Source: Faecalibacterium sp. I4-1-79 (GTDB taxonomy: Bacteria; Bacillota; Clostridia; Oscillospirales; Ruminococcaceae). Taken from it: 64,000 nt of DNA. Shown piece by piece: positions 35,522 to 54,378 of the stretch. Positions within the stretch are counted from its first letter, which is position 1. The number at the start of each line of letters is the position of its first letter. Location: the NCBI RefSeq assembly GCF_023347235.1, contig NZ_CP094467.1, forward strand, positions 1,736,001-1,800,000, read 5' to 3'. The notes under the pieces were generated by a model. That model worked only from the letters and a program-made list of their open reading frames with translations. It was not told the DNA's origin and did not search any database. A program made the translations under genes and the position numbers.

Positions 35522-36277
35522 ATGAAAGATCCCGCACTGGCATCGTCCAGCCGTCTGGGCGGCGCTGTGATCAGCGACCGTGTTGTTGCAAGCCTGCTGG
35601 AGGAGCTGTCCAACGGGCGCTATGCTCAAGCCGACCGTCTGCCCGCCGAGGTAGACCTTGCCACCGAGCTGGGGGTAAGCCGCACCGTGATCCGTGACGC
35701 GCTGAGCGAGATGGAGCGCGCCGGTTATGTGGAACGAGTGCGCGGCATTGGCACGGTAGTGAACCGCGCTGTGCTGGGGCTGCGCAGCCGCCTGGACCAG
35801 AAGCTGGAGTACTACCCGCTGATCCGCAGCTTTGGCAGCTACCCCCATGCAGACGGCATTCAGGTGATGCTTCTTCGTGCAGGTGAGGAGATGGCGCATG
35901 CGCTGGCGCTGGAAGTCGGTGACGAGGTGATCTGCATCAAAAAGCGTATCCTTGCCGATACGACCCCGGTGATCTACTCCATCGACTACCTGCCCCGCAG
36001 CCTGTTCGGCAACCGGGACTACACCCGTATCGACCTGACCGGCGACATCTTTGAAATTTTGGAGCAGGAGTGCCACCAGCAGATCTCTTCCAACGTGGCG
36101 CACCTGAAGGCCAGCTGCGGCGACGAAGCCATCCGTGCAGCCATGCGGCTTGCCCCGGGCGAGGCCATGCTGCTGCTGGACGAGGTATGTTTCAATCGTT
36201 TGTGCAGGCCGGTGATGCGCTCGCTGAGCTACTACACGAACTTTTTTGATTTTTCCATCTTACGCAAACTGCTTTAA
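35522..36277 (+). CDS. GntR/HutC-family transcriptional regulator, linked to pyrBI
   Basis: The 251-residue product has an N-terminal winged helix ([33 protein letters not shown] read in two adjoining parts, about residues 35-70) and a UTRA-like effector domain. The latter ends in [16 protein letters not shown]. The start at 35522 has GGAGG 8 nt upstream; the in-frame extension upstream lacks one. It is 17 nt upstream of pyrB on the same strand, so it probably regulates pyrimidine synthesis or its own operon. Ligand unknown. Confidence 0.85.
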
Positions 36278-36294: not shown

Positions 36295-37236
36295 ATGCGT
36301 CATCTGATCGACCCTTTGGATCTTACCCAGCAGGAGATCACACAGCTGCTTGATCTTGCCGACCGTATCTGCGCCGACCCTGCTGCCTATCAGGAGGTTG
36401 CCAACCACAAAAAGCTGGCCACCTTGTTCTACGAGCCCTCCACCCGCACCCGCCTGTCCTTTGAGGCGGCTATGCTGAACTTAGGCGGTCATGTGCTTGG
36501 CTTCCCCAGCGAGAACGTGTCCAGCGCCACCAAGGGCGAGAGCGTGGCCGACACCATCCGGGTGGTGTCCTGCTATGCCGATATCGTTGCCATGCGCCAC
36601 CCCAAGGAGGGCGCACCGCTGCGTGCCTCCCGCTACTCCCGCATTCCGGTGATCAACGCCGGTGACGGCGGCCACCAGCACCCCACCCAGACCCTGACCG
36701 ACCTGATGACCATCCGCCGCCGCATGGGCAGGCTGGATGATCTGACCATTGGTCTGTGCGGTGATCTGAAGTTTGGCCGCACCGTCCACTCCCTGCTTAA
36801 GACCATGGCGCGCTGCAAGAACGTGCGCTTTGTGCTGATCAGCCCGGAGGAACTGCGGGTGCCGGATTATATCATCAACGACGTGCTGGAGGCCAACGGC
36901 ATCCCCTACAAGGAGACCCGCAGTCTGGAGGAATCCATGCCGGAACTGGACATCCTGTATATGACCCGCGTGCAGAAGGAGCGCTTCTTCAACGAGGAGG
37001 ACTACATCCGCCTGAAGAACAGCTATGTGCTGACCCGCGAAAAGATGGCGCAGGCCAAGCCCACCATGGCGGTGCTGCACCCCCTGCCCCGCGTGAACGA
37101 GATCGCGCTGGATGTGGACGATGACCCGCGCGCCGCCTATTTTGAACAGGTGCAGAACGGCGTTTACGTCCGCATGGCACTGATCATGACCCTGCTGGGG
37201 CTTGCAGACCCCAAAGCACCGAAGGAGGAGAACTGA
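36295..37236 (+). CDS. pyrB: aspartate carbamoyltransferase, catalytic subunit
   Basis: PyrB joins carbamoyl phosphate and aspartate, the committed step of pyrimidine synthesis. Carbamoyl-phosphate-binding [15 protein letters not shown], the [15 protein letters not shown] block and the aspartate-binding HPLPRVNEI are present. 313 residues. The pyrI start codon lies one base after the pyrB stop, so the subunits are translationally coupled. Confidence 0.96.
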
Positions 37237-37237
37237 T

Positions 37238-37675
37238 ATGTTGAATATTGACGAGATTCAGAACGGTATTGTTATCGACCACATCAAGGCAGGCACTGCC
37301 GTTGGCCTGATGGATCTGCTGGGCATTGCGGGCAACCGCACTGCCAGCGTGGCGCTGATCCAGAACGCCCGCAGCAAAAAGACGGCCAGCGGCCGCAAGG
37401 ACATCATCAAGGTAGAGGGCGATGCCTCCTGGCTGAACCTGGATGTGCTGGCTTATCTGGACCCGAACATCAGCGTGACCATTATTGAAAACGGCAAGGC
37501 TGTCCGCAAGGAGCAGCCCAAGCCCCCCAAGCGTCTGGTGAACATTGTGCGGTGCAAGAATCCCCGCTGCATCTCCAGCATTGAAGAGGAGTGCGACCAG
37601 ATCTTTGAGCTGAGCTCCAACGGCAAGTACCGCTGCATCTACTGCGAGCAGGAATTGCAGGTAAAACCGGAATAA
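37238..37675 (+). CDS. pyrI: aspartate carbamoyltransferase, regulatory subunit
   Basis: The 145-residue subunit has the N-terminal nucleotide-binding domain (MLNIDEIQNGIVIDHIKAG, with the Ile/Asp/His pattern). Its C-terminal zinc domain carries four cysteines (C-x4-C, then C-x2-C in CKNPRC and CIYC). With pyrB it should form an allosteric enzyme of the enterobacterial type. GGAGGAG precedes the ATG. A terminator follows directly. Confidence 0.95.
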   Translation: MLNIDEIQNGIVIDHIKAGTAVGLMDLLGIAGNRTASVALIQNARSKKTASGRKDIIKVEGDASWLNLDVLAYLDPNISVTIIENGKAVRKEQPKPPKRLVNIVRCKNPRCISSIEEECDQIFELSSNGKYRCIYCEQELQVKPE

Positions 37676-51523: not shown

Positions 51524-52885
51524 TCAGACCTGCAGGTTGCCGCTGGTAGCAGCATCGGTACCGGCAGTGGCGTCAAATTCGTAGTCATTGCCGGGCAGGA
51601 TGGCGTTGAGCAGAATGCCTGCGATAGCAGCCACAGCCAGACCGGACAGGTTGATGGTGACGCTGCCAACGGTAAAGCCAACGCCGCCCACAGAGTTGAA
51701 GCCCAGTGCACACACCAGAATGACGGCGGCAACGATCAGGTTGCGGCTGTTGGTGAAGTCCACGCGGTTCTCCACCACGTTGCGCACGCCGATGGCAGAG
51801 ATCATGCCGTACAGTACGAAGCTGATACCGCCGATGATGCCGGTGGGAATGGTGTTGATGACGGCCTCAAACTTGGGGCTGAAGCTCAGGATGATGGCCA
51901 GCACAGCTGCAATGCGGATGACCAGCGGGTCGTAGATCTTGCTCAGTGCCAGCACGCCGGTATTCTCGCCGTAGGTGGTGTTGGCGGGGCCGCCCAGCAG
52001 ACCGGCCATGGTGGTAGCCAGACCATCGCCCATCAGGGTGCGGTTCAGGCCGGGGTCATTGATATAGTTGTGGCCAACGGTGGCGCTGATGGCGGCAATA
52101 TCGCCAACGTGCTCCATCATGGTAGCCAGTGCGATGGGGATGATGGTGAACAGAGCGCTGATGAACTCCGGGCTGCCGTCAATGGCAAACAGACCCATAG
52201 CCTCCTTGTGCAGGGGGATGCCCAACCATGCAGCCTCGGAGATCTTCTGGAAGTCCACTGCGCCGGTGACCAGTGCCACAGCGTAGGAGACCAGCACGCC
52301 GATGAGGATGGGCAGGATCTTGACCATGCCCTTGCCCCAGATATTGCACACGATCACAGTGCCCAGTGCCACAAAGGCCAGCAGCCAGTTGGACTGGCAG
52401 TTGGTGATGGCAGAGGGAGCAAGGATCAGACCGATGGAGATAATGATGGGGCCGGTGACCACCGGCGGGAAGAACTTCATGATGCGGCGGATGCCAAAAG
52501 TGGAGATCAGCAGGCTGGCCACCAGATAGACCAGACCCGAGAATGCAACGGCAGCGCAGGCGTATGGCAGCATCTTGGTGTTGGCAACGGTCAGGTTGCC
52601 ATTGGCATCAGCCAGCATGGGAGCCACGATGGAAAAGCCGCCCAGATACGCAAAGGAGGAGCCAAGGAATGCAGGCACCTTCTTTTTGGTGATAAGGTGG
52701 AACAGCAGCGTGCCCAGACCGGCACACAGCAGAGTGGTGGAAACGCTCAGGCCGGTGAGCAGCGGCACCAGAACCGTTGCACCGAACATGGCAAACATGT
52801 GCTGCACACCCAGAATGAACATCCGGCCGGTGCCCAGCTTTTTGGCGTCATATACGCCCTTGGAGTAATCGATCTTTTCGCTCAT
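51524..52885 (-). CDS. uraA: NCS2-family uracil permease
   Basis: The 453-residue transporter has about 14 hydrophobic segments in the UraA-like order: FMFGATVLVP-like beginning (MFAMFGATVLVPLL), AFLGSSFAYLGG, and the Glu of MEHVGDIAAIS in the substrate site. GLLGGPANTTYGENTGVLA, the NCS2 signature, follows. Specificity for uracil over xanthine is inferred from these motifs and from the leader. It is transcribed from the promoter at 53106-53134 through a leader peptide and a terminator. Confidence 0.9.
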   Translation of the reverse strand: MSEKIDYSKGVYDAKKLGTGRMFILGVQHMFAMFGATVLVPLLTGLSVSTTLLCAGLGTLLFHLITKKKVPAFLGSSFAYLGGFSIVAPMLADANGNLTVANTKMLPYACAAVAFSGLVYLVASLLISTFGIRRIMKFFPPVVTGPIIISIGLILAPSAITNCQSNWLLAFVALGTVIVCNIWGKGMVKILPILIGVLVSYAVALVTGAVDFQKISEAAWLGIPLHKEAMGLFAIDGSPEFISALFTIIPIALATMMEHVGDIAAISATVGHNYINDPGLNRTLMGDGLATTMAGLLGGPANTTYGENTGVLALSKIYDPLVIRIAAVLAIILSFSPKFEAVINTIPTGIIGGISFVLYGMISAIGVRNVVENRVDFTNSRNLIVAAVILVCALGFNSVGGVGFTVGSVTINLSGLAVAAIAGILLNAILPGNDYEFDATAGTDAATSGNLQV

Positions 52886-52911: not shown

Positions 52912-52949
52912 AAAAAAAGAGGCATTGCCGTTGAAACAGCAGTGCCTCT
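52912..52949 (-). terminator. leader terminator (attenuator) upstream of uraA
   Basis: The AGAGGCA / TGCCTCT stem (with extra inner GCTG/CGGC pairing) ends in seven T residues, 27 nt before the uraA start. It lies between promoter and gene, so transcripts must pass it. Confidence 0.85.
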
Positions 52950-52954
52950 GAATT

Positions 52955-53020
52955 TCAGGAACAAGACCTCCACACAAAAACGGGAAAGAAGCCGCTATGC
53001 AGTCGCTCATGCTTGAACAT
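52955..53020 (-). CDS. uraA leader peptide, 21 codons
   Basis: The ATG at 53020 follows a strong GGGGAGGAG. The 21-codon peptide contains SGFFPVFVW, encoded by a U-rich run (TTCTTTCCCG then TTTTTGTGTGG). It stops 5 nt before the 5' arm of the terminator. The arrangement is that of E. coli pyrL, whose U-rich PFFFPL segment couples UTP level to pyrBI attenuation. A longer in-frame ORF is excluded because it would begin upstream of the promoter. Confidence 0.7.
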   Translation of the reverse strand: MFKHERLHSGFFPVFVWRSCS

Positions 53021-53105
53021 TGTGCTCCTCCCCTTCTTTTTGTGTTCCTTCCAACAACCGGAACCGCTCCGGCAAGGCAGCAGCGGCGCCGCAGCCTTTT
53101 TGATA

Positions 53106-53134
53106 AGTATAGCAGATTTTGGGCTTTCCAGCAA
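53106..53134 (-). promoter_or_regulatory. uraA promoter
   Basis: On the minus strand, TTGCTG, a 17-bp spacer and TATACT; divergent from the nifS-like promoter 40 bp away. Confidence 0.75.
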
Positions 53135-53256: not shown

Positions 53257-54378
53257 ATGCTCTATCTGGATTACTCTGCCAACACCCCTGTGGACGAGGC
53301 GGTGCTGCAATGCTTCTGTGAAGCAGAGCGGCGTTACCCGGGCAACGCCAACGCCCACCATCAGGCAGGCGCTGCCGCAAAGGCTGCTATAAACGAGGCG
53401 ACCCGCAGCATTGCCCGCTGTCTGGGCGCACCGCCTGCGGGCATCATCTACACCTCCGGCGCAAGCGAAGCCAACAACCTTGCTGTAAAGGGGCTAGCGG
53501 CGCTGGGGCGTGCGGCAGGCAGGCACATCCTCTCTACTCCGCTGGAGCATTCGTCCGTCAGCGGCAGCCTAGAGGCACTACAAAAGCAGGGGTACGAGGT
53601 AGAGCTGCTGGACATCCTGCCGGACGGCACGGTGGACCTTGCAGACCTGAAAAACCGGCTGCGCCCGGACACTGTGCTGGTGGCTGTGACTGCCGTAGAC
53701 AGCGAACTGGGCGTAGTGCAGCCCATTGCGGAAATTGCAGAGCTTTTAAAGGCATATCCCAACTGCCATTTCCATGTGGACGCCACGCAGGCTGTGGGGA
53801 AAATTCCCGTACAGTTTGAGGGTGTGGACACCATGAGCCTGACAGCCCATAAGTTTTACGGGCTCAACGGCATCGGTGTACTGGTAAAACGGCTGGGACT
53901 GGCACTGCCGCCCCTCATTCATGGTGGAGAGAGCACTACTCCCTACCGCAGCGGCACACCTACCGTAGCGCTGGCTTGTTCGCTGGCGCTGGCCTTGGAA
54001 AAGGCTACTGCGGAGCTTCCCGCCCGCGCCGCAACAGTCCGCAGGCTGAACGATCGACTGCGTGCAGAACTTTCCCGCTATCCAAAAATGCGCATCAACA
54101 GCCCGGCAAACGCTGTGCCGCATATCCTGAACCTGAGTGTGCAGGGCGTAAAGGGCACCGTATTCCAGCGGGAGCTGGACGCACGCGGGGTGTGCGTCTC
54201 GGTCAAATCTGCCTGTTCGTCCGATGGACTGCCCTCCCGCGCGGTGCTGGCGGTCAGTCAGGACCGGCGCAACGCCCTTTCCTCCTGGCGCATCAGCCTG
54301 AGCCATCTTACCACAGAGGAGGAAGTGACCGGCTTTCTGCACGCCTTTGCAGACTGCTATAACACCCTGACCCGGTAA
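53257..54378 (+). CDS. cysteine desulfurase (NifS/IscS family)
   Basis: A PLP enzyme releasing sulfur from cysteine for Fe-S clusters or tRNA thiolation. The 373 residues begin MLYLDYSANTPVDEAV. The PLP lysine is in SLTAHKFYG (about residue 198), and the catalytic Cys in VSVKSACSSDG (about 319). GGAGG lies 5 nt before the ATG. It stands alone, with no iscU or thiI next to it. Confidence 0.92.
   Translation: MLYLDYSANTPVDEAVLQCFCEAERRYPGNANAHHQAGAAAKAAINEATRSIARCLGAPPAGIIYTSGASEANNLAVKGLAALGRAAGRHILSTPLEHSSVSGSLEALQKQGYEVELLDILPDGTVDLADLKNRLRPDTVLVAVTAVDSELGVVQPIAEIAELLKAYPNCHFHVDATQAVGKIPVQFEGVDTMSLTAHKFYGLNGIGVLVKRLGLALPPLIHGGESTTPYRSGTPTVALACSLALALEKATAELPARAATVRRLNDRLRAELSRYPKMRINSPANAVPHILNLSVQGVKGTVFQRELDARGVCVSVKSACSSDGLPSRAVLAVSQDRRNALSSWRISLSHLTTEEEVTGFLHAFADCYNTLTR

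Follow-up and report, generated by a model that had tools for sequence, protein, structure and literature searches.

Upstream of uraA, a candidate uracil permease gene of Faecalibacterium sp. I4-1-79, lies a short, U-rich leader frame that ends just ahead of an intrinsic terminator; this arrangement is probably a translational attenuator that senses UTP, as in the pyrBI operon of E. coli. The leader is located in the window, i.e. the whole 64,000-nucleotide stretch of DNA that was analyzed, to which coordinates refer unless a genome and contig are named. An earlier note made from the letters alone had described, between promoter and gene, a frame of 21 codons behind a very strong ribosome-binding site, a U-rich stretch within this frame, a stop codon 5 nt ahead of a hairpin, and seven T residues behind; all of these parts were located, and their coordinates proved exact.

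53134–53106, minus strand: uraA promoter, sigma-70-type, read in the sequence
53134–53129, minus strand: −35 box of this promoter, TTGCTG, separated from the −10 box by a 17-nt spacer
53111–53106, minus strand: −10 box, TATACT, read in the sequence
53045–53037 and 53033–53025, minus strand: 5′ arms of a predicted helix, the latter being the ribosome-binding site (fold prediction)
53033–53025, minus strand: ribosome-binding site (Shine–Dalgarno, SD) of the leader, GGGGAGGAG, read in the sequence
53020–52955, minus strand: leader frame of 21 codons, MFKHERLHSGFFPVFVWRSCS, plus stop, with its ATG at 53020 and counterparts in relatives
52992–52972, minus strand: U-rich tract in the leader frame, GCTTCTTTCCCGTTTTTGTGT, providing the 3′ arms of the predicted helix
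52990–52973, minus strand: U-rich stretch in the leader frame, TTCTTTCCCGTTTTTGTG, read in the sequence
52960–52957 with 52911–52908, minus strand: short outer helix, from alignment (A1, columns 129–132 with 181–184)
52949–52918, minus strand: intrinsic terminator hairpin of uraA (putative attenuator), −18.8 kcal/mol
52918–52912, minus strand: seven-T run of the terminator, read in the sequence
52885–51524, minus strand: uraA, NCS2-family nucleobase (uracil) permease, with its ATG at 52885; the presumed regulated gene

The promoter, with 3 + 5 of 12 consensus matches, falls below the threshold of our promoter scan and is absent from its output. Folding of the 201-nt leader is more stable than that of shuffled versions (z −4.5). 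In profile searches the gene product matched TIGR00801 (over cut-off) and PF00860, and on the uracil-permease model NF007995 it scored 309 bits (cut-off 477), above RutG and pbuX; the protein is thus a predicted NCS2 nucleobase transporter, for which uracil permease is the best-fitting identity, and it is 99% identical to a record from F. prausnitzii ATCC 27768. On the opposite strand, uraA shares its intergenic region with a diverging gene (53257–54378, plus strand), which from its sequence we take to resemble a NifS-type cysteine desulfurase.

Comparison with the uraA leaders of relatives, as the earlier note had proposed, revealed that both the frame and its position against the hairpin are kept. 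Our sample combined the best 80 of 572 confirmed named relatives with 58 loci from genus and family genomes; from these 138 uraA-type rows, 11 paralogous or partial permease loci (L107–L117) were set aside. Five of the remaining 127 yielded no start codon, and removal of upstream regions below 220 nt and of duplicates left 107 distinct upstreams (L090, L094, L096, L103, L105, and L106 repeat other genus rows). For the chance model, the 170 nt before each hairpin were shuffled with dinucleotides kept. A terminator was present in 65 of the 107, and 43 of these 65 had an SD-led frame reaching it (11.2 expected), with the stop codon between 12 nt before and 40 nt after the hairpin start in 39 (6.3 expected). 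Judged from these sequences, the leader architecture is beyond chance; the z-scores of the leader count overstate independence, because the sequences are related. Shuffled upstreams of the window locus (L088) yielded such a frame in 0.25 of cases, so the window alone is weak evidence, and it is the relatives that make the case strong. The device is common, not universal, given that 42 of the 107 upstreams lack a terminator and that the leader went undetected in 22 of the 65 that have one.

Within the genus, UraA of at least 81% identity was found in 19 of 31 searched genomes (own included), and all 19 carry an SD-led frame running to a terminator. In the family sample, 14 of the 26 close orthologues with a readable upstream are without a leader when read by eye. 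The leader scanner recovered pyrL in E. coli K-12 as a positive control and found no leader at ten paralogous permeases, four of them with a terminator. For the sequence comparisons below, we chose by eye a curated set of 50 leaders (45 uraA, five pyrB). It leaves out three of the scan-positive upstreams (L139, located at a PyrR element in G095; L035; L051) and includes seven (L005, L012, L013, L022, L120, L122, and L127) at which the scan took another hairpin or frame, or none. Dropping similar peptides left 43 representatives (38 uraA, five pyrB). Leader-bearing records are named, among others, Faecalibacterium, Gemmiger, Fournierella, Angelakisella, Oscillospiraceae, Pygmaiobacter, and Christensenellaceae.

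Some uraA upstreams follow other designs. At six loci (L004, L011, L014, and L029 from Gemmiger; L015; L017) a terminator-like hairpin comes almost directly after the promoter, with little room for a frame, and uraA may there be under a different, leaderless control. At L007 and L009, a hairpin with arms like ACGG..CCGT and without a T run adjoins the ribosome-binding site of uraA and perhaps controls translation. In a further group (L051, L053, L056, L058, L060, and L079), the leader ends at a weak hairpin of the GACAATCAC..GTGATTGTC kind, in most cases with the stop codon at its very foot; as read from their sequences, these hairpins are a separate solution with the same geometry.

If uraA is governed by a UTP-responsive attenuator, a regulon is to be expected, and a leader of the same design, MLCSAQNPKLNKQFASGFAVASLFPFFAQ, does precede pyrC in the same genome, with a seven-T run in the frame and the stop codon at the hairpin foot. 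The operon behind it reads pyrC, pyrF, pyrK, pyrD, then pyrE, carA, and carB (the last named from its place and sequence). This second leader is found in all 30 readable genus genomes, own included (31 searched; one gene partial). Across 37 pyrC leaders, the stop codon lies 1 nt (22 leaders) or 0 nt (12 leaders) before the CTTTTCC arm of the hairpin, making 34 of 37. The other three were scored past the start of this arm; for one of them, L261, the script had matched CTTTTCC inside the leader, and a separate scan places the stop at the hairpin. Of the 119 genomes that make up the family sample, 113 have a pyrC match; we read the upstream regions of 30 genomes, and in 17 of these 30 a leader heads the pyr operon, pyrB-first operons included. 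G088, G008, and G110 were counted by eye among these pyr-operon leaders, and the leaders at L197, L280 (with a non-ATG start), and L282 were likewise accepted by eye.

A scan of 2.1 of the 3.23 Mb of the genome (one contig) for SD-led ATG frames of 12–55 codons covered 878 terminators. Twelve frames reach a hairpin, and only those of uraA and pyrC are U-rich with a gene downstream. The U-richness thresholds were set once uraA was known, and three of the scanned stretches besides the window had been picked for pyr genes; the other 2.0 Mb held no fitting locus. The best reading of the two leaders is that uraA and the pyrC operon form a putative pyrBI-type UTP-sensing regulon.

Other pyrimidine loci of this genome did not add to the list. 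The pyrBI operon of the window (36295–37675) was considered as a second attenuated locus and rejected: a leader was sought upstream and none was found, and the operon sits behind a GntR/UTRA regulator gene (35522–36277, plus strand) that directly precedes pyrB and pyrI. Similar gene ends precede pyrB in G012, G110, G081, and G054 (by eye), and the GntR/UTRA product may be a pyrimidine repressor. No leader was found at pyrE, nor at the second pyrB of this genome, an aspartate carbamoyltransferase-type gene (G000:C1:2695881-2696777, minus strand, L176; 326 bits on TIGR00670) that lies in a gene context different from that of pyrBI. Among 89 pyrB upstreams scanned, 20 had a terminator; the frames at L150, L189, and L222 were discarded as not U-rich or as chance.

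We then considered the structure of the leader RNA. In 18 Faecalibacterium sequences, 98% of the pairs of the uraA terminator are kept, and three of its ten pairs have changed on both sides. The short outer helix across the T run (85% kept; two-sided changes at three of four pairs) joins the leader end to bases beyond that run, and can form only in read-through transcripts. In addition to the features proposed by the earlier note, folding predicts pairing between the leader's ribosome-binding site and the U-rich tract. This SD–tract pairing averaged 0.83 in the 50 curated leaders and 0.62 after shuffling of the leader body; it was higher than in the shuffles in 47 of the 50 and exceeded them by a z over 1 in 27. 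Own ribosome-binding sites with own tracts also outperformed swapped partners (0 of 5000 permutations for 34 pyrC pairs and likewise for 44 uraA pairs; 34 of 5000 for five pyrB pairs), a result that may stem in part from base composition common to a lineage. An 11-bp helix that we positioned by eye across 24 pyrC leaders has 88% pairing and shows A-U to G-C exchanges at two positions (in eight and nine sequences, mostly of one clade). Its pairing and its covariation score surpass every slid version and all, or all but a few, of the shuffles; 142 of 500 shuffles match it in two-sided pairs and 438 of 500 in pair types, and sliding it by −3 gives an equal number of two-sided cells. Folds of single leaders against shuffles were uneven (z −0.3, −3.4, and −2.5; −1.4 for the window). 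Taken together, a helix of the leader ribosome-binding site and the U-rich tract is likely but not established.

Such pairing is also what would be expected if the helix were the aptamer or expression platform of an unrecognized pyrimidine riboswitch, with the frame being incidental, and both its excess over shuffles and swapped partners and the two-sided changes in the pyrC set speak for this possibility. We nevertheless regard it as improbable: no Rfam family reached its gathering score, with sub-threshold matches only at a lax threshold, the stretch between the helix arms is poorly conserved in the alignments, and the open frame with its stop at the hairpin would go unexplained. A suhB match in the uraA leader (23 bits; gathering score 41) was treated as chance.

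Across the leaders, it is the nucleotide sequence rather than the peptide that is conserved. From start codon to hairpin, the 50 curated leaders contain 35% T and 17% A (0.356 and 0.176 in the 43 representatives), and T exceeds A in 41 of the 43 representatives, compared with 20 of 43 for the DNA preceding the leaders. UUY triplets (UUU plus UUC) make up 0.144, 0.138, and 0.160 of the three frames in the 50 uraA/pyrB leaders, and 0.143, 0.140, and 0.166 in the representatives. The conserved element of these leaders is, by this comparison, nucleotides—an excess of U—as the peptides differ. Hence, the U-rich tract singled out by the earlier note does not vary freely; its U excess persists while the leader peptide changes.

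These counts bear directly on the idea of an amino acid sensor, in which a ribosome stalling at Phe (or Leu) codons would allow an antiterminator to form, as in pheA-type leaders. The peptides are indeed Phe-rich, only two of the 50 curated leaders being without Phe before the hairpin, and 37 pyrC leaders have their highest UUY share in frame (0.157 versus 0.093 and 0.125), albeit among closely related sequences. Yet a Phe sensor should show a bias towards its own frame, and the uraA/pyrB leaders show no in-frame excess of UUY; moreover, L092 and L095 have no Phe, and the genes behind such leaders are pyrimidine genes. We thus hold sensing of Phe to be very unlikely.

Equally unlikely, in our estimate, is a TnaC-like arrest, in which the nascent peptide would halt translation by binding a pyrimidine inside the ribosome tunnel. 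What favors this notion is a GFFPVF-like core seen repeatedly in Faecalibacterium and also in three records of Gemmiger (L012, L026, and L028), but most of the 50 curated peptides are without it, and the matching DNA core occurs out of frame as well. This core, YYYYC(C/G)GTT, is present in eight of the 50 leaders (1.7 expected; some of the eight are related) and is spread over the three frames (5, 2, and 1), possibly representing a polymerase pause signal. The leader of F. hattorii (L002) and E. coli pyrL (L236) have TTCCCGTTGAT in common within the U-rich tract, which may be chance.

In Bacillus, the uracil permease gene is under PyrR attenuation. As in the leaders described here, a terminator then controls pyrimidine genes, but the Bacillus system needs both the PyrR protein and its RNA site (RF00515), neither of which was found in this genome; PyrR attenuation is not known to involve a leader peptide. 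The searches returned no PyrR RNA in the window at gathering score and none in the own genome at E 0.001 (under strict filters, by which some weak matches are lost), and the best match to the PyrR protein model NF003549 scored 27.7 bits against a cut-off of 138. The pyrBI-like reading of the earlier note called for this absence of a PyrR-type element at the uraA leader.

The distribution of PyrR among relatives complements this picture. PyrR RNA matches (E 0.001) occur in 43 of the 119 family genomes, eight of them over gathering score. None of the 17 genomes with a pyr-operon leader has such a match, compared with seven of the 13 read genomes without (Fisher p 0.0008; one genome was moved by eye, the figures before the move being 0 of 16 and 7 of 14, p 0.0017). 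For all leader genomes, the count is 1 of 22 versus 42 of 97, in statistics that ignore kinship and with some pyr upstreams unread; before pyrC loci were counted, it was 1 of 16 versus 42 of 103. With uraA leaders alone, the difference (1 of 12 versus 4 of 14) is not significant (p 0.33). PyrR protein scored over cut-off in two of 16 leader genomes (G104 and G066), as opposed to all 11 PyrR-RNA genomes tested. From this distribution, leaders seem, with exceptions, to take the place of PyrR, also at the head of the pyrB/pyrC operons of relatives. PyrR-type or other protein-mediated attenuation at the leaders themselves would find a precedent in the family genomes with PyrR RNA; with neither an RNA match nor a protein over cut-off in the own genome, and most leader genomes lacking both, there is very little to recommend it.

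How might the UTP-sensing attenuator operate? With ample UTP, polymerase would outrun the leading ribosome, the terminator would fold, and uraA would be off. With UTP scarce, polymerase would slow in the U-rich tract while the strong ribosome-binding site of the leader recruits a ribosome; on reaching the stop codon at the hairpin foot, this ribosome would cover the 5′ arm and let transcription enter uraA. Since the tract can close the ribosome-binding site, we propose that its transcription sets the window for ribosome loading: behind a fast polymerase, the tract would close the site, and behind a slow one the site would stay open, sharpening the timing. The same device would act before the pyrC-F-K-D operon here and at the head of pyrB/pyrC operons in relatives. 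We infer these kinetic steps, as well as UTP as the signal, from the arrangement of the parts.

The template for this model is the E. coli pyrBI operon with its leader pyrL. Low UTP slows polymerase in the U-rich tract, and the ribosome blocks the terminator. The Clostridia leaders share with pyrL the SD-led frame, the U-rich coding tract, the intrinsic terminator before a pyrimidine gene, and a frame that reaches this terminator. They differ in their host, in the genes they precede (uraA and pyrC/pyrB operons), in their peptides, and in the predicted SD–tract helix. Furthermore, the pyrL frame ends 47 nt beyond the start of the hairpin, whereas the Clostridia stop codons mostly lie just before, at, or inside the hairpin. 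Consequently, of the earlier note's claim that the leader reproduces the pyrBI mechanism, the design is supported and the likeness to pyrL breaks off at the position of the stop: the window leader ends 5 nt ahead of the hairpin and does not read through the attenuator as pyrL does. A few relatives (among them L002, L099, and L102) do run through the hairpin, and we do not treat this trait as defining for pyrBI-type attenuation.

For E. coli, coupling across pyrL is reported to prevent the terminator (PMC5021804). Translated leaders before attenuators also occur in Firmicutes: a His leader has been predicted in bacilli (PMC2965389), S. aureus is reported to have a Leu-rich attenuator peptide (PMC5794164), and BmrC/BmrD of B. 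subtilis reportedly undergo attenuation mediated by the ribosome (PMC4191407). Those leaders reportedly sense an amino acid or antibiotics, in contrast to the frame-independent U enrichment and the pyrimidine genes of the uraA/pyrB leaders. According to a 2026 review (PMC13328217), pyrimidine control in Gram-positives is the task of PyrR, and premature termination or a change of start site in response to nucleotides belongs to Gram-negatives. Among the matches listed by our search of open PMC, to which the subscription journals with most of the pyrBI literature are external, none was a Gram-positive leader of the pyrBI kind.

What counts against attenuation by a ribosome that catches up is the classification of Bacillota as runaway-transcription organisms, in which ribosomes normally lag polymerase (PMC13323073), a class that likewise includes B. 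subtilis (PMC7858274). We tried the stop-to-terminator distance as a sign of uncoupling and abandoned it as too coarse (median 34 nt and at most 20 nt in 25 of 79 rough cases; five cases with a median of 25 in the window). Pyrimidine-rich RNA is a Rho target in runaway-transcription species (PMC13323073), and a terminator with a translated, unregulated frame that merely shields such a leader from Rho could be imagined, but the confinement to pyrimidine genes among 878 scanned terminators and the recurrence of stop codons right at the hairpin make this a far-fetched account.

The wider scenario built on the UTP-sensing attenuator is that PyrR-less Oscillospirales run a pyrimidine regulon (uraA and the pyrC/pyrB operons) by UTP-sensing attenuation that evolved apart from Enterobacteria, with the SD–tract helix as a timer, and this in a runaway-transcription phylum; we advance it tentatively, its chances lying slightly short of even. 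If true, a key gut commensal genus would control its pyrimidines without a regulatory protein, and an attenuator that needs the ribosome to catch the polymerase would report when coupling happens in a Clostridium.
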